Below are positions 3,705-13,753 of a DNA stretch of 45,625 nt, piece by piece. Source of the stretch: an uncultured marine group I thaumarchaeote. Lineage in GTDB: Archaea > Thermoproteota > Nitrososphaeria > Nitrososphaerales > Nitrosopumilaceae. Both the position numbers and the translations under genes were made by a program. Below the pieces are notes generated by a model. That model made no database searches. It had not been told where the DNA came from and saw only the letters and a program-made list of their open reading frames with translations. Numbering within the stretch: position 1 is the stretch's first letter; each line of letters opens with the position of its first letter. Location of the stretch: the NCBI GenBank assembly GCA_902606965.1, contig CACLIK010000006.1:1-45625 (forward strand), in the 5' to 3' direction.

Positions 3705-4763
3705 ATGACGAGGGAAGCTATCCTTTACGAAAAAAGACCTAATGGCAAGGTTTTGTGTACGGCATGTGCTAGATATTGCGAGATAGGAAAAGGACAGATT
3801 GGCCTTTGCGGTATACGAGGAAATGAAAATGGTAAGCTTGATCTTTACGTTTATGGAAAAGTTATTGCTGGTCATGTAGACCCAATAGAAAAGAAACCCG
3901 TTATTCATTATAATCCAGGCAGCAAGATTTTCTCAATTGCAACTACTGGATGTAATTGGCTTTGCAAATATTGCCAAAATTCTGACATCAGCCAGAGGCG
4001 GAAAGTAGAGGGTGTTGACATGACACCGGAACAGGTTGCAAATACAGCTGTTGATCATGGAGCAGATGGAATAGCATACACCTACAACGAGCCTTCAATA
4101 TTCATTGAATTTGCACGTGATTGTGGTGTTGCTGCAAGAAAGAAAGGACTCTTCAACATTTTTGTCTCAAATGGATATGATACTCCTGAATCAGTAAAGA
4201 TGATGGATGAATTCTTGGACTGTATCACTATTGACTTCAAAGGAAGTGCAGAGCCTGACTTTACAAGAAAGTTCATTGGTGTGCCGGATCCTCAGCCAAT
4301 ATTTGATACTATTTTGGAAATTAGGGACAAGACAAAGATTCACACAGAGATTACAGATTTGATAGTTCCACAAGTTGGTGATAATCTTGAGCATGCAAGA
4401 AAGCTTGCAAAGTTTGTGTATGATCAACTAGGTCCGGAAACTGTAATTCATTTTCTACGATTCCATCCTGATTATAAAATGATGGAGTATCCCGCTACGC
4501 CAGTAAAGACTTTGGAAAAACATTATGAAATTGCGAAAAACGAGGGACTCAAGTATGTATATCTTGGAAATGTTCCAGGTCACCCATGGGAACACACCTA
4601 TTGTGCAGGATGCAACGAAATTGTCGTAAAAAGATTCGGCTTTGACATTCAGGAATGGCATCTTGACAAGAATAACAAATGCAAATTCTGTGGAAATCAG
4701 ATACCAATAACTGGTTCACTAGCCAAAGATTACAAGCAGGAACGATTCCAGTTTGTGGTTTAG
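3705..4763 (+). CDS. amrS: AmmeMemoRadiSam system radical SAM enzyme
   Basis: 352 aa; N-terminal CTACARYCEIGKGQIGLCGIRGNENGKL and CNWLCKYCQN radical SAM cluster motif. Confidence 0.9.
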   Translation: MTREAILYEKRPNGKVLCTACARYCEIGKGQIGLCGIRGNENGKLDLYVYGKVIAGHVDPIEKKPVIHYNPGSKIFSIATTGCNWLCKYCQNSDISQRRKVEGVDMTPEQVANTAVDHGADGIAYTYNEPSIFIEFARDCGVAARKKGLFNIFVSNGYDTPESVKMMDEFLDCITIDFKGSAEPDFTRKFIGVPDPQPIFDTILEIRDKTKIHTEITDLIVPQVGDNLEHARKLAKFVYDQLGPETVIHFLRFHPDYKMMEYPATPVKTLEKHYEIAKNEGLKYVYLGNVPGHPWEHTYCAGCNEIVVKRFGFDIQEWHLDKNNKCKFCGNQIPITGSLAKDYKQERFQFVV

Positions 4764-4798
4764 AAAAATTATAATTCCCGTAGATTTTTTCACAAATA

Positions 4799-5485
4799 AT
4801 GAATTATTCACTTTTTGTTATTACAGGATTGTTTGTCATAGGGTTTAGCTTTTCTTCGGTTTATGCACATGTAACAATTGAAGTTGGTCCTTATGAGATC
4901 GAGGTAGGATGGCTTGACGAACCTCCAGTTCTAAATAATCTAAACGCGATAACCATAAGCATTAAGGAACCTGGAGATGTTGAGGGTGCTTACATGGGTG
5001 TAGCTAACGCATTTAGAAATTTGGACGCAACTGTGATTTCCGATGGAATTTCTAAATCACTTGATATTCAAGCTGGTAAGTATGCCGCGGAATACTATGG
5101 AGAGATAATTCCTACAAACATAGGTCAAGTAGAAGTCAAACTAGTTGGAGAAATTAATGGAATTGAAGTTGATGAAATAATTCGAATAGAAGATGTTGAG
5201 ACTGGATCCGCAGACACTGTAATTCCACGATGGATAAAAAATAACGCAGGATGGTGGGCTGATGGCCAAATTCCAGACTCTGCATTTGTCAAAGGAATTC
5301 AGTTTCTGATCAAGGAAGGAATAATGATTATACCACCTACTGCGCAGGAAACAAGTTCAGGATCATCGGAAGTTCCAGACTGGATAAAAAATAACGCAGG
5401 ATGGTGGGCTGATGGCCAAATTCCAGACTCTGCATTTGTCAAAGGAATTCAGTTTCTGATCAAGGAGGGGATTTTCGATGTTTGA
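4799..5485 (+). CDS. Secreted protein with two near-identical WIKNNAGWW repeats
   Basis: Signal peptide MNYSLFVITGLFVIGFSFSSVYAHV; two WIKNNAGWWADGQIPDSAFVKGIQFLIKEGI repeats. Confidence 0.85.
   Translation: MNYSLFVITGLFVIGFSFSSVYAHVTIEVGPYEIEVGWLDEPPVLNNLNAITISIKEPGDVEGAYMGVANAFRNLDATVISDGISKSLDIQAGKYAAEYYGEIIPTNIGQVEVKLVGEINGIEVDEIIRIEDVETGSADTVIPRWIKNNAGWWADGQIPDSAFVKGIQFLIKEGIMIIPPTAQETSSGSSEVPDWIKNNAGWWADGQIPDSAFVKGIQFLIKEGIFDV
5231..5466 (+). repeat. Two exact 86-bp direct repeats, 5231-5316 and 5381-5466 (offset 150 bp)
   Basis: Both copies read tggataaaaaataacgcagg...tttctgatcaagga with no mismatch; they encode the two WIKNNAGWW repeats. Confidence 0.95.
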
Positions 5486-5524
5486 ACCACTTTCATTATA
5501 TGCTATTTTTGATGGAATCTCATA

Positions 5525-5908
5525 TTGTCAAAATACTCTTCATTAGTGGATAACAAGCCAACGCTTCTTACTTTGGTGATAATTGGTGTAGTTGCTGCAT
5601 TATCCATTCCTGTGCTTATACCACATTTCGGTCATGGAACTCATATTTTTCATCTCTTGTTGCATACGGGAGGAATTATCTTAGCCGTCTTCCTAACAAT
5701 TTTGGGCATCAATGCATATTCAAAGATAAAGACAAAAAAACTTGCGATTACATCTATAGCATTTTTTGTATTTGCTATTGCAGAAATAGTCTCATTATTA
5801 GACGCAACTACTGTACATTATTACAACATACCTGGGTATGAAATTGCACACATGCTTATGATTGGCATGATTGGAATTTTTGCATACGGTATATTTAGGG
5901 GTGATTAA
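5525..5908 (+). CDS. Small multi-pass membrane protein
   Basis: 127 aa with several hydrophobic segments; TTG start; followed after 3 nt by the HTH regulator gene. Confidence 0.75.
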   Translation: MSKYSSLVDNKPTLLTLVIIGVVAALSIPVLIPHFGHGTHIFHLLLHTGGIILAVFLTILGINAYSKIKTKKLAITSIAFFVFAIAEIVSLLDATTVHYYNIPGYEIAHMLMIGMIGIFAYGIFRGD

Positions 5909-5911
5909 GAA

Positions 5912-6418
5912 TTGTGGGATATGGCTAGACCAGAACTAATTTTAAAGACAATCGAAAAAAACCCAGGTATTAGGTTCCGTGAGATCATGGATGAATTAGA
6001 GTTAAAGAACGGCACATTAAGCCATCATTTACAAAAATTGGAACGAGAATCAGTCTTACGAGCAGAAAGGACACCTCGAGTAGCAAGATTCTATCCTCTT
6101 TCTATAAATGAAGCAGAAATTCCAATTATCGCAAGGTTAAGGCAGGAAACACCACGTAGAATTCTACGCTTATTGTTGGATGTAGATGAGGTAAATTTCT
6201 CTGAAATGTTCTTGAGGATAAAAAGATCACCTGGTACAACATCACGTTATGTCACTGAATTAGTTAATGATGGTATTATCAAAGATAGGTTTGAGAATGG
6301 AAAGCGATTTTTTTCACTTCCAGACAAGAACACTGTTAATGAGTTAATTTCACAGTATCATCCAGATTTGATGGATAAAACAATTGAAAACTATGCAGAT
6401 GTTATTTCATCTCTTTAA
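5912..6418 (+). CDS. Winged-helix transcriptional regulator, two wHTH domains
   Basis: NPGIRFREIMDELELKNGTLSHHLQKLERESVLRAERTPRVARFYPL plus a second wHTH (NFSEMFLRIKRSPGTTSRYVTELVNDGIIKDRFENGKRFFSL). Confidence 0.85.
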   Translation: MWDMARPELILKTIEKNPGIRFREIMDELELKNGTLSHHLQKLERESVLRAERTPRVARFYPLSINEAEIPIIARLRQETPRRILRLLLDVDEVNFSEMFLRIKRSPGTTSRYVTELVNDGIIKDRFENGKRFFSLPDKNTVNELISQYHPDLMDKTIENYADVISSL

Positions 6419-6491
6419 TGTAAAAAGTAAGCATATTTTTGATCACTGTACCAATCAGGTTATATTACTCAATTTAAGGAATTAATCTAAA

Positions 6492-7385
6492 ATGCAGAAG
6501 AAAATGTATACATTATTTGGTTTACTCGCTATCTTTTCAATGATAGCTGTAGCACCACCTGCATTTGCAGATCATGCATCAGTCACAGTGACAAACGCAC
6601 CAGGATCATCAACTCCGGGATGTGAAGCAACTGATGATTGCTTTATTCCAAGTACAGTTACAATCGATGTAGGCAGTGAGGTCATTTGGGAAAATACTGA
6701 CAACGCAGCTCACACAGCAACATCTGGTACACCAGCTGATGGACCAGACGGAGTTTGGGACAGTAGCTTGATGATGGTTGGTGGAAGTTATTCTAAAATG
6801 TTTGATGAAGCAGGAACATATCCTTACTTTTGCATGGTTCACCCATGGATGGAAGGAACTGTAATTGTTGAAGCTGAGGATGACCATGGTGATGACCACG
6901 GTGAAGAAATGAGTCACAGTGACGACATGGGACATGATGAGAAGGCAGAGATGGGACATGGTGACGACATGGGACATGGTGATGATCATGGTGGAATAGA
7001 AGATCTATCTGACCAGTTTACAGCATCAGTTACGTCTGGTGTAATTCATCACATTGGCGCAAACTCTGACGACGATACATTACTTGTTCACTTATTCGAC
7101 ACTACTGATGACGGCGAACTTAAAATTACTCTAAACGAAGATATCATAACTCCATTTGATGACGGCACATACTTTGTACTTGTAGACAACGAAGAAGTTG
7201 ACTTTGAACAAATGGGAAACACTGTACATGTTGAATATTGGGCAGGCGCTGAGAGAATCGAAATAGTTGGAAGTCATGTAGTTCCAGAATTTGGAACAAT
7301 TGCTATGATTATACTTGCAGTAGCAATAGTAAGCATCATTGCAATAACTTCAAAGACAAGAATTTCTCTAACTCCTAAACTCTAA
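6492..7385 (+). CDS. Cupredoxin (plastocyanin-like) with His/Asp-rich linker and PEFG-CTERM-type anchor
   Basis: Signal peptide; type 1 copper motif GTYPYFCMVHPWMEGTVIV; HGDDHGEEMSHSDDMGH...MGHGDDHGG linker; C-terminal VPEFGTIAMIILAVAIVSIIAITSKTRI. Confidence 0.92.
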   Translation: MQKKMYTLFGLLAIFSMIAVAPPAFADHASVTVTNAPGSSTPGCEATDDCFIPSTVTIDVGSEVIWENTDNAAHTATSGTPADGPDGVWDSSLMMVGGSYSKMFDEAGTYPYFCMVHPWMEGTVIVEAEDDHGDDHGEEMSHSDDMGHDEKAEMGHGDDMGHGDDHGGIEDLSDQFTASVTSGVIHHIGANSDDDTLLVHLFDTTDDGELKITLNEDIITPFDDGTYFVLVDNEEVDFEQMGNTVHVEYWAGAERIEIVGSHVVPEFGTIAMIILAVAIVSIIAITSKTRISLTPKL

Positions 7386-8722
7386 GTATTTTTCAAATAG
7401 GATATTATTTTTGGGTGACACAGAATTGAGCTGTGTGCAGCTGAATCAGTTCCAATTCCATAACTAACAGTGGAGTCACCAACAAAGAAGAGTCCTTTGA
7501 CTTGAGATACCTCGTGTGGCATTTTATTTTTCCAAACCAATCCTGGTTCTTTCACAACTGATTCCACTAAACTCCAAGCCTTTGGTCTGTCCCACAACAA
7601 TACTTGTTGAAACTTTGGATATATTGATGACAATTCTTCCTTCATCTTTGTAACAACTTCTGCAATTTTTTGTGAATTCTTTGCATCATCAGAAGATACT
7701 GGTGTACCGACTATCATAAGGTGCTCATCAGGTGGAGAAACAGATGGTGTAATGTTTGAAATGAAAAAGATCCCCTTGCATACATAGTCTTTTCCTACAG
7801 GAAACACAACTTGTCTTGAATCAATTTTTTCTGAGAGTGCAAAGTGTACTTCGATAACTGATGTAGTTTTGTTTAGTCTGTTTGTCGATTCTATAAATTT
7901 CTGATCAAATACTCCATTGTCAAAGAGCTGGTTTATTGCAAGATATGCTGGAAAAGTGACGACCACACAATTACTGGGAACAAATTCTCCATTTGTGAGG
8001 GTAATTCCTTCAACTTTGCCATTTTTCACCTCGATTTTTTTTATTGATGTATTCAAGTTCAACTCAGAACACTTACTGGTGATATATTCAGCAAACACTT
8101 TTGAGATTTTGTCATATCCACCCATGTCTGGATATGCAAACTCGCTTGTTCCACCCTTAAACGGATTAGCACGTATGATTGTGCGCGCAAATTCGCCCAA
8201 TGATATATGTTCTGGAACATCTGCAAACGCGAGAATACATACAGCATCAAAAAAATTTCTTGATTGTTCATCTAGTTTTTTTGTTATGTCCGTAAGTGGA
8301 ATTTCATCGAGTTCTTCTGTTTTTTCTATACTTGTAAATGCCATAGGTAACAAAACTCTAAGAAGTGAAAGTCTACTTCGGAATGGCAGCAGTGTCATCT
8401 GTAAAATGTCAACAATTCCCTTTGGATACTTGTGAAATCCATTTCCGTCATAAAACGCAATATCAGAAACACTTGCTAGTTTAAGTTTCGAAACTATGTT
8501 TAGTTTTTTAAGAATCTCATAAATTTTTGATTTTTTGTAGAATGGCATTATGTGAAATCCATTGTCTAAAATATGTCCATTATACAATGATGTGGCAGTT
8601 CTGCCACCCACTTCCGAAAATTTTTCAAAAACTTTACACGATATGTTTTCATTCACTAGTAAGGCAGCAGTTGATAGCCCACTTACACCAGCACCTATTA
8701 TCAGTACTTTAGAAGACAACAC
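7382..8722 (-). CDS. FAD-dependent oxidoreductase, phytoene desaturase/amine oxidase-like
   Basis: Rossmann motif VLIIGAGVSGLSTAALL..., VGGRTATSLYNGHILDNGFH, C-terminal FFVGDSTVSYGIGTDSAAHS. GTG start overlaps the upstream stop. Confidence 0.88.
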   Translation of the reverse strand: MLSSKVLIIGAGVSGLSTAALLVNENISCKVFEKFSEVGGRTATSLYNGHILDNGFHIMPFYKKSKIYEILKKLNIVSKLKLASVSDIAFYDGNGFHKYPKGIVDILQMTLLPFRSRLSLLRVLLPMAFTSIEKTEELDEIPLTDITKKLDEQSRNFFDAVCILAFADVPEHISLGEFARTIIRANPFKGGTSEFAYPDMGGYDKISKVFAEYITSKCSELNLNTSIKKIEVKNGKVEGITLTNGEFVPSNCVVVTFPAYLAINQLFDNGVFDQKFIESTNRLNKTTSVIEVHFALSEKIDSRQVVFPVGKDYVCKGIFFISNITPSVSPPDEHLMIVGTPVSSDDAKNSQKIAEVVTKMKEELSSIYPKFQQVLLWDRPKAWSLVESVVKEPGLVWKNKMPHEVSQVKGLFFVGDSTVSYGIGTDSAAHSSILCHPKIISYLKNT

Positions 8723-9576
8723 TAAGAATCCTTTTTCTTGATCATTCCTTGAATTGTTCTGGACAATTCAGATAGAGAAGATGTATCCATAACCGTAACA
8801 TCATGAAATGAGTTTCCATCTTGTAATGCTTGTCCACCAATTACAATGGGTATTTTGAATTTTTGTAGATTCTTGATCAGTATGTCACATGACCTGAGAT
8901 GATCTTTTAATGTGACCGAGATTAAAATCAAATCAGGTTTTTTCTCTGAAATGTGGCTAATTATTGACTTAGATGGAGCAGAAGGTGCCAAGTTGATCAC
9001 GTCATAACCATTTAACGAAAGATACGTTTCCATCATAAAACACGGGATTGCATGATATTCCCCATCAGGTGTACAGATGAGGATTGTTTTTCCTTTACTT
9101 TTCGCTTTTGGCTTAGTGCCTATCTTTTCAATTAGATGCATTGCGGTATTACTCGCAATATGTTCATCTCCGACGTCAAGTTTTTTTGCATCCCATAGTT
9201 CTCCTATCTGATACATTGCTGGTCGTAAGACATTATCATAAAAACTGGCTACAGATGTTTGCTTTGTAAAATCAGTGTAAATTGACATGGTATTTTTCAA
9301 ATCACCAGCCAGCAAGAATTTACGCATATTTTGCCTAGTTTTGGTTAGATATTTCTCACGTTTTTTAGTGTCTAATTGCCTGTTAGATGACAAAAACGAT
9401 AGGACAGATGGATCATTTCTATATTCATCTGGAATGTTTTCTAAAGTGACATCTGATGTTTTTCCTAAATACTTGATAGTTTGTTGCTCAGATGTTTTCT
9501 TTTTTGAATTCCACTTACTTTTTACAAGATAAGAATACGATTCATTCTTAACAATTTTAGAACGAAGGAATACCAT
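8722..9576 (-). CDS. Cobalamin-binding domain protein (B12-binding 2 + B12-binding), CarH/LitR-like sensory module
   Basis: YDNVLRPAMYQIGELWDAKKLDVGDEHIASNTAMHLIEKI and TILICTPDGEYHAIPCFMMETYLSLNGYDVINLAPSAPSKSI match the helical and Rossmann B12 domains. Confidence 0.82.
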   Translation of the reverse strand: MVFLRSKIVKNESYSYLVKSKWNSKKKTSEQQTIKYLGKTSDVTLENIPDEYRNDPSVLSFLSSNRQLDTKKREKYLTKTRQNMRKFLLAGDLKNTMSIYTDFTKQTSVASFYDNVLRPAMYQIGELWDAKKLDVGDEHIASNTAMHLIEKIGTKPKAKSKGKTILICTPDGEYHAIPCFMMETYLSLNGYDVINLAPSAPSKSIISHISEKKPDLILISVTLKDHLRSCDILIKNLQKFKIPIVIGGQALQDGNSFHDVTVMDTSSLSELSRTIQGMIKKKDS

Positions 9577-9588
9577 TTTCCTTCTTGT

Positions 9589-10545
9589 CTACTTCACCGT
9601 TAACTCTAATGGTAGATTCAAGTTTCCAAATGGTTCAGTGATTTTTAGAAAATACTCACTGGATGCATCATAGTTCCATCTTTCCAAGTGTTTTTGTGCA
9701 GGAGGTCCAAATGAGAAATCAATTGAAGCAATGACGTCAGGCTTCATTTCTAATCTGCCAGCGGTAACAGTATTAGTAGAATATGGCCAGTCCTTTTTTC
9801 CATCAGTGATTGTGTAATTACATGCAACTGCACCAGTACAGAATATTGAGTGATTTTTGCTATCAGTATTGTGTACTACAAATGTTATGAACAAATTTGA
9901 ATTTCCATCAGGTGTAATTATTACTTGAGATGGAGTATAGTAATAATGCACGGGTCCAACCACATACTTTTTAGAACCCATCATGTATTCAACGCTCTCT
10001 AGCAGATCCTTGAACTCATTTTCACACAAGAAAACTTCTGAAGCCTTGTCATATTCCTGGCACTTTGCAAGCTCTGCTTTCACTTGATTATATTTTGCAG
10101 TTAACGTAGAATCAGAACTTGATGGTGCAGCTGTTGGTGCTGCCATTGCAGGTGCTGCCTGCTCAGCTTGTGGAACTGTCATTATTCCAACTTTAATGAG
10201 ATGTTGAATAGCATTTACAAAGTCATCATCAGAAATTTGATTTCCTGCCCACCAGCTGGCGGTATTTTTAACCCAACCAGGTATTGTTGATTCTGCAGTT
10301 CCAGAAACTGCAGTGGTTGGAACTTCTATAATGTCATTTGAAACAAGCCATTCAATGCCTGAAACAAACGAACCATCGTCAATAATTCCATCAGCCCACC
10401 ATCCTGCGTTATTTTTTATCCAGTCCGGAACACAAACTCTGCAATCAGGTGGTGCATAGTTGCTTGATGTTGATACTTGTGCAGAAGCAATTGGTATCAC
10501 AGCAACTGCTGCTAGTAAAGCAAGTAATGGAATTACTTTATTCAT
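9589..10545 (-). CDS. Secreted protein with WIKNNAGWW repeats and a C-terminal extracellular domain
   Basis: Start taken at MNKVIPLLALLAAVAVIPIASAQ (the ORF-track start is 21 nt upstream); PDWIKNNAGWWADGIIDDGSF and a diverged PGWVKNTASWWAGNQISDDDF repeat. Confidence 0.85.
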   Translation of the reverse strand: MNKVIPLLALLAAVAVIPIASAQVSTSSNYAPPDCRVCVPDWIKNNAGWWADGIIDDGSFVSGIEWLVSNDIIEVPTTAVSGTAESTIPGWVKNTASWWAGNQISDDDFVNAIQHLIKVGIMTVPQAEQAAPAMAAPTAAPSSSDSTLTAKYNQVKAELAKCQEYDKASEVFLCENEFKDLLESVEYMMGSKKYVVGPVHYYYTPSQVIITPDGNSNLFITFVVHNTDSKNHSIFCTGAVACNYTITDGKKDWPYSTNTVTAGRLEMKPDVIASIDFSFGPPAQKHLERWNYDASSEYFLKITEPFGNLNLPLELTVK

Positions 10546-10618
10546 GTAGCATACTGGCGCCACCACTATAATATAAACTGGTGCTAACTTTACTTACTAG
10601 TGCTAACTAGCAAATAGA

Positions 10619-11455
10619 TCAGACAAAAATTATCGATGCATAACCAACAACTGAGCTTTTGTCACCTGAAATGTCACCACTGGTGGCATATTTCAGCAGT
10701 TTTCCCTCAGTAGCACCAAGTTCCTTACAGGCAATCATGGTAGACGCTATCGCACCATATCCACATGCAGTCACATGCTTTTCATACAAAACTTTGTAAA
10801 ATTCATCAACGTCCAGCTTCAGAATCGGTTCAATCAGTGCCATGTCTTGTTTATGTGCAAATTCATTTTCTTCGTAATGCGTAAAATCAGATGAACCAAT
10901 CAACAAGACATCCTTTTTTTTGGCGAGTTCTGCAATTGCGGAGCCCACTTGTGTTGCTGTTTTTTGTTCTTGAGTAATTAGAGAGACAGGAAGTATCTTC
11001 ATTTCATTAGGAAATGTTTCTTGGAGTATAGGGATCTGCACTTCAATACTGTGCTCTTTTGAGTGAGAGAAAGAGTCAAGTTCCAATATACCTAGATACT
11101 CTCTTAGTTCCAATGCAGATTCCGAATCAACTTTAACCAAACCAAGTGGAGTCTTCCAACTAGAATCAACCATGGACGCAACATTTTGTCCAATTCCGTA
11201 GTGATTAGGGCCAGTAATTATTGCTAGTTTGCTTTTAGACAATGAGATTGCATAGAATGAGTGGCAGGCAACAGGACCAGAATAGACGAATCCTGCATGT
11301 GGGCATATCACACCGTAAATCTTTTGTTCAGAATCTGTCGGTGGTATTTTACCAGGACCAAATTCATGCAAAAAGCATTCATGTATGAGATCTTTTAGTC
11401 CCTTTTCATCTCCAGGATAAAACGTTCCAGATACCGCCGGCGTCCTAACTTCCAT
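10619..11455 (-). CDS. amrB: AmmeMemoRadiSam system protein B (MEMO1 family)
   Basis: VRTPAVSGTFYPGD...YGVICPHAGFVYSGPVACHSF...ITGPNHYG...VLLIGSSDFTHYE. Start taken at MEVRTPAVSG. Confidence 0.93.
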   Translation of the reverse strand: MEVRTPAVSGTFYPGDEKGLKDLIHECFLHEFGPGKIPPTDSEQKIYGVICPHAGFVYSGPVACHSFYAISLSKSKLAIITGPNHYGIGQNVASMVDSSWKTPLGLVKVDSESALELREYLGILELDSFSHSKEHSIEVQIPILQETFPNEMKILPVSLITQEQKTATQVGSAIAELAKKKDVLLIGSSDFTHYEENEFAHKQDMALIEPILKLDVDEFYKVLYEKHVTACGYGAIASTMIACKELGATEGKLLKYATSGDISGDKSSVVGYASIIFV

Positions 11456-12035
11456 TGGTTTCCTCCTTGTATACAATCCCCTCAAACTTTTCAATTTTCA
11501 CTTTTTCATTTTTCCAAGTATTCTTTTCCAACCCAGCCTTTTCACATGTATGCTGGAGAAATTCTTCCACATTCCAACCATATTCGACAGGAACTTGCGG
11601 CAATAGCAGACCTGATGAAAAAGAGTTTCTTATGATCAGACCATCCCTTCCAACTTTGATCTTCTCCAAGTATTCCATAGGATCAGTTACAGTGATCTCA
11701 ACTGGTGGTGTGAGAACGGTTACTTCAAACACAATGCCATTCAGCTCATTTGTTTTTACTGGTGAGAATCTTGGGTCCTCTGTGGCTGCAGCAATTGCTG
11801 CATCTATTATTCCATGAGATAGTTTTTTGTCAGGCATCGGAAATCCGATGCAGCCTCGTAATCCATCAGCGTTGTTTAAGGTAACAAACACGCCTGCATT
11901 AAAAGAGAATTTTTTCTCACGTTCTGATTCTAATTTCATTCTCTTACCATTTGAAAGAAATTCAGTAACAGCCATTCGTGCAGTCTTGACCAAGAAAACC
12001 CCATCTGAATCAGATAATTGGGTATCTTCAGGCAT
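11445..12035 (-). CDS. amrA: AmmeMemoRadiSam system protein A (AMMECR1 family)
   Basis: FVTLNNADGLRGCIGFPMPDKKLSHGIIDAAIAAATEDPRFSPV...FEVTVLTPPVEI...GRDGLIIRNSFSSGLLLPQVPVEYGWNVEEFLQHTC. Confidence 0.95.
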   Translation of the reverse strand: MPEDTQLSDSDGVFLVKTARMAVTEFLSNGKRMKLESEREKKFSFNAGVFVTLNNADGLRGCIGFPMPDKKLSHGIIDAAIAAATEDPRFSPVKTNELNGIVFEVTVLTPPVEITVTDPMEYLEKIKVGRDGLIIRNSFSSGLLLPQVPVEYGWNVEEFLQHTCEKAGLEKNTWKNEKVKIEKFEGIVYKEETNGS

Positions 12036-12094
12036 ATATCATCAACCCAATTGTATTAAAAAAACATTAAATTTTACAAATTATTCTTTAACAC

Positions 12095-12301
12095 ATGCCA
12101 GAACCAATTATGGCAATAGCCGCGTTAGCTGTAATCACTATAGCATTGATAGGTCAGGCTATTGAAATGCGAAAGATACGTGTGAGAACGCATGGCGAGG
12201 ACTCGATAGGCAGCCCAAACATATTCTTGGATAAAAGAAATTTCAAATGGTATGGAATGATTGTTGTAGGATTTGGTTTAGCATATGCAGCGCAGTTTTA
12301 G
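12095..12301 (+). CDS. Small membrane-associated hypothetical protein
   Basis: 68 aa with hydrophobic N- and C-terminal segments; ATG after an AT-rich promoter-like region; stop overlaps the convergent gene. Confidence 0.65.
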   Translation: MPEPIMAIAALAVITIALIGQAIEMRKIRVRTHGEDSIGSPNIFLDKRNFKWYGMIVVGFGLAYAAQF

Positions 12302-12606
12302 TTATAATCCACTTCTAAAACTACTCTGGGTTCATTCGCACGTTTTTCATCATCATACTTTAATTGAGATATTTTCTTGCAAAGAGAATCATCACTGACC
12401 AAGCTAGCCTTTCCAGCAAAACTTTGTCCATCAAATTCTATTTTTACATCTGGATTTTTTTGCGCATTCTTCAACCAATCACTGTTTGTATTTCTTCGTG
12501 AGAAGTACAACTTTCCCTCATGTTTGACGGCAAGAAGCCATACCCTATGCGTCTTTCCAGTATCCCTACCCTTTGTTTCTAAGATTGCCTTAAACCTCAT
12601 TCTCAA
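12298..12606 (-). CDS. Pyridoxamine 5'-phosphate oxidase/F420-type split-barrel protein
   Basis: 102 aa: GRDTGKTHRVWLLAVKHEGKLYFSRRNTNSDWLKNAQKNPDVKIEFDGQSFAGKASLV. Confidence 0.72.
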   Translation of the reverse strand: MRMRFKAILETKGRDTGKTHRVWLLAVKHEGKLYFSRRNTNSDWLKNAQKNPDVKIEFDGQSFAGKASLVSDDSLCKKISQLKYDDEKRANEPRVVLEVDYN

Positions 12607-12610
12607 TCAT

Positions 12611-13753
12611 CTATGATAGTAATTTTAGAATTTCATCAACCCTGCAATCCGTTCTGAATCCAGTTGGATTAAGCGAAGTTGGACTTGCTACAAATCCAGC
12701 GTCTTGGAGTTTTTCAATCATATTTTTCATTTTGAGCGGAGCCTTTTGCATTTTTGATGCAATTTCATCAAGTGTATAATATGTTGCTGGCATTTCTGAT
12801 TCTAGAATACATTTTTCTAAGATTTTTTCACATCTCTTATCCACTGTAAGCTTTGGAAGCATTTCATTCATTTTCATTACAAATTCTTTTTCAAACAATG
12901 GTCCTATCCATAATGGTCCAGCAACTTCTAGCTTAGAATTACAAATATTACAAATCTCTTCCTGTTTCATAATAGCTTTTCTGCTTCCACATGATTTGCA
13001 ATGTATGATATATCCAAGCTGCTCCTTTTGTTCTGGCTTGTTTAAAATTTTAAGATACGTCCTGTAATAGTGCATGTCATGTTGCACAAACTGTGGAATT
13101 ATCTGAATATCTAATCTTCCTGCAACATATTCCAAGCAGCCTAGGATTAGTCTAATTGCAATTTCGTTAGAGTATTCTGTTTTTATTGGCACGCCATGGT
13201 ATTTTCTTTGGCATGATCTTTTTGACAGCCCATGTAATACCTGCAAGTCTGTAGCAGTAACTGACAGCATACCACCATGCATTGTGGCACGAATCGCACA
13301 GTCAAAATATTTTGTTGGTGAGCCAAAAGGATCAACATCCACAATCGAACCCCTCATGCCTTTCTTCGAGTAAGATCCAAAAAACTGGCATATCTCTTTC
13401 TCAGATGTTTCAAGATTTGAAATCTCATTTAGTTTCATGGAATCCAGTGCAATGTCCAAGCCTTCAGAATTGATATCATTAGTCACAACCGCTTCCACAT
13501 CTGTAATTTCATTTGCAACTCTGAGTGATCTGGCACCAAGACCAGCTAACCCGTCTAGGAATATTTTTGGCTTGTCAAAATTTTCCCAAAAAGCAGAATA
13601 GGCTAAAATTGAGAAATCACGGTTCAATTTGGCAGCAGGGTTGAAAAAAGCGGGTTCCTTTGGTGGAACTTTCTCATCTAGTGATTTTTCTGGAACAAGA
13701 ATTTTTGTTGTACCCTCCGTTATCTCTACTAGTTTTTCTTCTGTTCTTTGCAA
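12611..13753 (-). CDS. trm1: tRNA (guanine(26)-N(2))-dimethyltransferase
   Basis: FFNPAAKLNRDFSILAY, FLDGLAGLGARSLRVANE, IVDVDPFGSPTKYFDCAIRAT, GGMLSVTATDLQVLHG, CxxC zinc ribbon. Confidence 0.95.
   Translation of the reverse strand: MQRTEEKLVEITEGTTKILVPEKSLDEKVPPKEPAFFNPAAKLNRDFSILAYSAFWENFDKPKIFLDGLAGLGARSLRVANEITDVEAVVTNDINSEGLDIALDSMKLNEISNLETSEKEICQFFGSYSKKGMRGSIVDVDPFGSPTKYFDCAIRATMHGGMLSVTATDLQVLHGLSKRSCQRKYHGVPIKTEYSNEIAIRLILGCLEYVAGRLDIQIIPQFVQHDMHYYRTYLKILNKPEQKEQLGYIIHCKSCGSRKAIMKQEEICNICNSKLEVAGPLWIGPLFEKEFVMKMNEMLPKLTVDKRCEKILEKCILESEMPATYYTLDEIASKMQKAPLKMKNMIEKLQDAGFVASPTSLNPTGFRTDCRVDEILKLLS

Follow-up and report, generated by a model that had tools for sequence, protein, structure and literature searches.

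Proteins that sense light through cobalamin (B12) are defined by two motifs, W-x9-EH and ExH...SxT...GG (PMC9304148, PMC11796333), and one of them, CarH, binds tandem 11-bp repeats (PMC9304148). Bacterial LitR/CarH loci also hold a similar mix of genes: in Pseudomonas, the photolyase PhrB, an SDR and a flavin adenine dinucleotide (FAD) oxidoreductase lie beside PmlR1 (PMC9758184), and DUF1722 is present in RudS within LitR operons (PMC11417400). Archaeal ammonia oxidation is inhibited by light, and the genomes of the ammonia-oxidizing archaea, which are abundant, hold cobalamin biosynthesis genes (PMC7554672); in the open literature (subscription papers were not covered), we found neither a light receptor for these archaea nor a report of the system described here. 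The subject of this analysis is a 284-residue B12-binding protein encoded on the minus strand of a 45,625-nucleotide stretch from an uncultured marine group I thaumarchaeote (contig CACLIK010000006.1; the whole stretch is hereafter 'the window', and all positions refer to it). We consider it likely that this protein is an adenosylcobalamin (AdoCbl)-dependent photoreceptor-repressor of ammonia-oxidizing archaea, which would sense light much as CarH does and would bind DNA with a different part.

The B12 protein (8722-9576, minus strand; PF02607, 1.4e-9; PF02310, 5e-11) consists of a helical B12-binding_2 subdomain (residues 84-149; 9130-9327) with the motif GELW-x9-EH and a Rossmann B12-binding subdomain (residues 165-250; 8827-9084) with ExHx2P-x41-SxT-x24-GG, both delineated by Pfam, an AlphaFold model and motif searches. 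The cofactor site of CarH is complete: GxxW-x9-EH is present, and the general B12 motif ExHx2[G/P]-x41-SxT/V-x22-27-GG is matched in its strict form. The W-x9-EH motif, which contacts the adenosyl group in CarH, reads GELWDAKKLDVGDEH in the window and is shared by 61 of 62 family members; G125, W128, E138, H139, G172, E173 and H175 are invariant in the family. At the GxxxP signature of light-responsive cobalamin-binding domains (CBDs; PMC11796333) the window reads APSAP, with A for G, while P201 is invariant in the family. An earlier note on this DNA had pointed to DEHIAS and GEYH as signatures of a CarH/LitR-type helical plus Rossmann module; both are present as parts of the complete motifs, and the predicted structure is indeed nearest to CarH-type domains and photocobilins. 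The model (mean predicted local distance difference test score 88.8) finds its best Foldseek matches in the CBD of CtMerR (8jbs), photocobilin 8j2w and TtCarH. The best PDB sequence matches are likewise photocobilins, the cobalamin domain of CtMerR and TtCarH. Among NCBIfam models, CarH comes nearest, with a score well below its cut-off.

Closest of all, in structure and in PDB sequence, are the CtMerR CBD (8jbs/8jbt) and the photocobilins (8j2w, 8j2y), 8j2w sharing with the archaeal protein the variant DGExHA(L/I)P. CtMerR differs in having a MerR domain and the photocobilins in having a bilin-binding domain; neither Pfam nor the AlphaFold model places any domain past the Rossmann domain of the 284-residue protein, which thus lacks the latter. 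The fold superfamily is also that of methyltransferase-type corrinoid shuttles such as MtbC or MetH, and NCBIfam gives weak matches to MtgC, MtaC and MetH. All NCBIfam scores are far below cut-off, however, W-x9-EH is complete, photoreceptors are the best structural matches, an extra N-terminal domain is present, no methyltransferase gene adjoins the window's B12 gene, and corrinoid proteins that stand alone in other members of the phylum show similarity to the B12 part only. A shuttle is hardly credible for this protein, and we rejected that identity on motifs and structure.

What sets the archaeal protein apart from CarH and LitR, with which it shares the helical and Rossmann module, W-x9-EH and ExH...SxT...GG, is its N-terminus, where a beta domain takes the place of the MerR helix-turn-helix. 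The earlier note saw no obvious MerR domain there; Pfam and NCBIfam give no match to a MerR-type helix-turn-helix, and the AlphaFold model shows three beta strands within the first 40 residues, where basic and aromatic positions are conserved in the alignment. This candidate DNA-binding domain (about residues 1-50; 9427-9576, minus strand; strands 2-9, 12-23 and 28-39) has the invariant residues R5, K7, Y14, S20, W22, Q31, K35, Y36, G38 and P49. Among all genes of 14 genomes it is confined to the B12 family, and when the phylum was sampled, only the archaeal class of the window genome showed the complete architecture, other matches covering the B12 part alone. Since both the MerR domain and the CarH type of operator are absent, the protein is not a member of the CarH family; its sensing would be CarH-like, as far as the residues show.

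In agreement with the earlier note, three genes follow one another almost without gaps on the minus strand, as open reading frames (ORFs), spacing and coordinates all indicate. The first (9589-10545) encodes a secreted WIKNNAGWW-domain protein with an N-terminal hydrophobic signal and an ATG at 10545 (a longer ORF alternative opens at 10566), for which Pfam and NCBIfam give no match; the B12 gene begins 12 nt downstream, preceded by the Shine-Dalgarno-like GAAGGAAA noticed before; and the third gene (7382-8722; start GTG at 8722 or TTG at 8719) encodes a 446-residue FAD-dependent oxidoreductase of the amine-oxidase/phytoene-desaturase superfamily (PF01593, 2.2e-25). Translational coupling of the last two had been proposed from a TAGTG overlap. 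The overlap exists in the window, the B12 stop TAG and the FAD start GTG having base 8722 in common, but the case for coupling is weakened by the closest public relative, locus L031 from the single-cell genome of another uncultured marine group I thaumarchaeote, in which gene order is identical and the FAD gene starts at a TTG (TTGTCTTCTAAAG) roughly 11 nt downstream of the B12 stop codon. Because L031 uses this TTG, which is found in the window at 8719, the overlap is not conserved and GTG may not be the true FAD start; operon continuity is conserved between the two despite the differing start. L031 was the sole relative returned by a first scan of public genomes with a single protein. No RNA element was detected in an Rfam scan of 4000-13000, and hence no cobalamin riboswitch there.

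The operon is headed by a candidate operator, the direct repeat TTAGCACTAG-N9-TTAGCACCAG with a period of 19 bp (10578-10606, minus strand; no mismatches, 0.02 expected by chance), which scores 35.6 bits with a position weight matrix and is the only match in the window even when up to three mismatches are allowed. A TATA-like element, TTTATATTATA (10567-10577, minus strand), abuts the second repeat, an arrangement seen before most homologous B12 genes, and the sequence predicts a near-leaderless transcript starting around 10545. Upstream of the relatives' B12 genes, a direct repeat TTAGCACTAG-N9-TTAGCATTAG runs into a TATA-like TTATATA at a mostly fixed distance from the ATG. The window's B12 gene lacks a repeat of its own and the repeat heads the secreted gene instead, as it does in L031, where the operator is also kept; this supports a single promoter for all three genes. 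In genome G019 a pair of secreted and B12 genes is likewise headed by the operator, and the SDR gene, on a separate contig, is still preceded by it.

At 14 bits or more, the weight matrix finds 164 sites in 1.14 Mb of relatives' loci and none in first-order Markov sequence; these counts are not independent, because the loci partly overlap and the matrix was trained on sites upstream of B12 genes. The operator was detected before 55 of the 62 B12 homologues, 21 of 29 FAD genes, 18 of 43 SDR genes and 18 of 43 secreted-protein genes. Genome-wide pattern searches, in which the negatives included genomes of the same genus without the B12 gene, gave exact matches in 17/24 of the genomes that have the B12 gene but in 0/24 of those that lack it (Fisher p 1.6e-7), and matches to a second operator pattern in 14/20 and 0/22, respectively (p 7e-7), both p-values ignoring shared ancestry. 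The earlier note had missed this operator and its link to genes of the light-damage response, the photolyase/DUF1722/SDR/SRPBCC/TFB neighbourhood in relatives, and a function that is probably regulatory. Further copies of the operator lie upstream of a small PNPOx-like family and of a 190-residue family, f19, in L185 (genome G059) and L172 (G019); judged by these upstream sites, both are possible further members of the regulon.

Next to the TATA box, where a B recognition element (BRE) would be expected, stands the second repeat, and TFB genes lie near the B12 gene in 30 of 62 relatives' loci. The B12 protein might accordingly be a photosensor that does not itself bind DNA and contacts, for example, a nearby dedicated TFB paralogue reading TTAGCACTAG as a special BRE; the lack of any known DNA-binding relative of the N-terminal domain would fit. 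We regard this as rather unlikely: the first repeat, 19 bp upstream, is not explained by a BRE, TFB genes have no detectable operator, the operator tracks the B12 gene, and in several loci, among them those of the window and L031, operator and B12 gene occur with no TFB gene nearby.

The B12 gene is present, full-length or clearly homologous, in 110 of 300 genomes of the class; the FAD gene occurs in 58 of the 300, and 56 of these also hold the B12 gene. Convergent orientation within 300 bp of the B12 gene is found for 35 of 60 FAD genes, and 45 of the 60 lie within 10 kb, so that the B12-FAD adjacency, whose conservation the earlier note had wanted checked, is kept in relatives. Co-occurrence with the B12 gene has Fisher p-values (again ignoring shared ancestry) of 2.6e-27 for FAD, 2.8e-16 for photolyase, 6e-27 for DUF1722 and 7e-36 for SDR genes; 22 of 42 photolyase genes are located at most 12 kb from a gene of the B12 family. 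A frequent layout in Nitrosopumilaceae has a secreted-protein gene and DUF1722 divergent, sometimes a photolyase, then SDR and B12 genes divergent, followed by a convergent f7-SRPBCC-FAD operon and TFB. Gene order and strand vary across the relatives' loci, while proximity persists.

This gene content resembles that of the class II LitR region of Pseudomonas (pmlR1: phrB, SDR, FAD oxidoreductase, ufaM) and of the RudS/DUF1722 operons. Class II LitR differs in having no B12 Rossmann domain and relying on a LOV protein, and in the archaeal loci no ufaM was seen and TFB and SRPBCC genes are present. With CarH/LitR (class I) the archaeal system shares (i) a direct-repeat operator overlapping the promoter, (ii) a regulon that includes the sensor's own gene, and (iii) photolyase, SDR and FAD oxidoreductase as neighbours in the archaeal relatives. 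Thermus pTT27 carries an SDR that has 36% identity to the archaeal SDR and adjoins an FAD oxidoreductase, with uvsE, carH, crtB and phr following within a few genes.

A gene for a BtuF-like binding protein neighbours the B12 gene in 18 relatives' loci, and CarH-type domains need AdoCbl, so that B12 status must influence them. Both observations would suit a protein that responds not to light but to the supply of cobalamin or to redox state and that regulates B12-related or oxidative-stress genes. The genes bearing the operator or clustered at the locus are, however, photolyase neighbours, SDR, FAD oxidoreductase and DUF1722, and not genes of B12 synthesis or uptake, and W-x9-EH is the signature of AdoCbl photoreceptors (PMC9304148); we thus consider such a sensor distinctly improbable. 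BtuF-like, f15 and SRPBCC genes, which neighbour the relatives' B12 locus, lie together on another contig of the window genome (G000, contig C3; L112:7594-10045).

The earlier note had tied the sensor to an isoprenoid- or carotenoid-type enzyme. The tie to the FAD gene stands, being conserved in relatives, while the carotenoid role does not. Pfam assigns the FAD protein to Amino_oxidase/NAD_binding_8, and its fold is closest to 3ka7 and 5mog; the match to phytoene desaturase 5mog (template modelling score 0.84) speaks for a sensor-controlled carotenoid or isoprenoid desaturase. The match to 3ka7, an archaeal protein annotated simply as an oxidoreductase, is equally close, though, the score against the CrtI model TIGR02734 is 55.8 bits for a cut-off of 238.1, and no phytoene/squalene synthase (PF00494) was found in 14 genomes, that of the window included, in a search that was positive in control genomes. 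A desaturase is therefore very improbable, and we rejected the carotenoid/isoprenoid role. The protein shares the fold and the FAD-binding N-terminus with the amine-oxidase/phytoene-desaturase superfamily (3ka7, 5mog, HpnE, CrtI) but, unlike these, belongs to a family of its own without a carotenoid pathway partner; it scores below cut-off for all of the best 25 NCBIfam models. The family is about 52-70% identical across ammonia-oxidizing archaea outside L031, and no relative was found on plasmids. We do not claim the FAD oxidoreductase of the Thermus light cluster as an orthologue, the likeness being limited to the FAD-binding start. The role of the enzyme is probably photo-oxidative protection.

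The following scheme would account for the locus. As in CarH, AdoCbl would be held between the helical W-x9-EH domain and the Rossmann domain, with His175 as the lower ligand. Without light, the AdoCbl-loaded protein would oligomerise and place its N-terminal three-stranded beta domains on both 10-bp copies of the direct repeat (TTAGCACTAG, at a 19-bp period) beside the TATA box, and the bound oligomer would block TFB and TBP from the promoter; we thus infer repression rather than activation. Light would cleave the Co-C bond, loosen the oligomer and open the promoter. In the window, a single operon would be induced, so that the sensor, under negative autoregulation, would be made together with the secreted protein and the FAD oxidoreductase. 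The operator would also act, in relatives, before SDR, FAD, secreted-protein and other genes, beside photolyase and DUF1722.

Several points weigh against a photoreceptor-repressor. The residue following W128 is Asp in the window and A, S, E or others in the family (n = 62), never His, and because the upper-ligand His after Trp is absent, light-state chemistry must differ from that of TtCarH; CtMerR and the photocobilins likewise lack this His, the residue being variable among light-responsive CBDs (PMC11796333). The operator, with its 19-bp period of TTAGCACTAG repeats at an archaeal TATA promoter, differs from the tandem 11-bp TnnACA repeats of CarH. For the N-terminal domain, searches of PDB sequences and of Pfam gave no match, so that no DNA-binding family is recognised in it, and a suspected likeness to transposase N-termini found no confirmation; a TFB, its gene often being near the locus, could be the DNA-binding partner instead. 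The Fisher p-values for both co-occurrence and operator, as noted, take no account of shared ancestry. Photolyase, DUF1722 and SDR genes were not found in the window's own genome, an assembly of 733 kb that is only 63% complete (genomes of the same genus are mostly 0.9-1.2 Mb). Finally, the B12 protein has diverged faster than its neighbour: it is 69-70% identical to its counterpart in L031 (6001-6840), compared with 94% for the adjacent FAD protein, and it stands on a long branch apart from its genus, with which the FAD protein does group.

Some Nitrosopumilaceae have a second gene of the B12 family, exemplified by L050:5905-6765 (G066), with similar genes in G126, G130, G131, G172, G211 and G215. 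The L050 copy has lost the W and EH residues, retains GExH and the N-terminal domain, and has a photolyase gene nearby; by analogy with the pair CarA and CarH, this copy could be a paralogue that does not respond to light. Around the operon itself, a plastocyanin-like protein with a His/Asp-rich stretch is encoded at 6492-7385, convergent with the FAD gene and overlapping its stop by four bases, and this gene also adjoins the operon in L031. The operon is further situated between the members of an AmmeMemoRadiSam trio, with a radical-SAM gene (3705-4763) on one side and genes for Memo-like and AMMECR1 proteins (10619-11494 and 11445-12035) on the other.

Taken further, the chances are about even that a new class of B12 photoreceptor is at hand, in which a CarH-type module joined to a new beta-sheet DNA-binding domain acting on a TATA-adjacent repeat would put a regulon of Archaea (photolyase region, SDR, FAD oxidoreductase, secreted proteins) under the control of light, whether it arose in parallel to bacterial LitR/CarH gene sets or was assembled from them. 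If true, B12 photoreception would extend to Archaea with a new output domain, which would be of use in studying how gene regulation evolves and as a component for optogenetics. The evidence collected here suggests that ammonia-oxidizing archaea have a B12 light switch of their own, and the defined operator and sensor make the light question, that is, which genes respond and through which protein, testable in cultured relatives.

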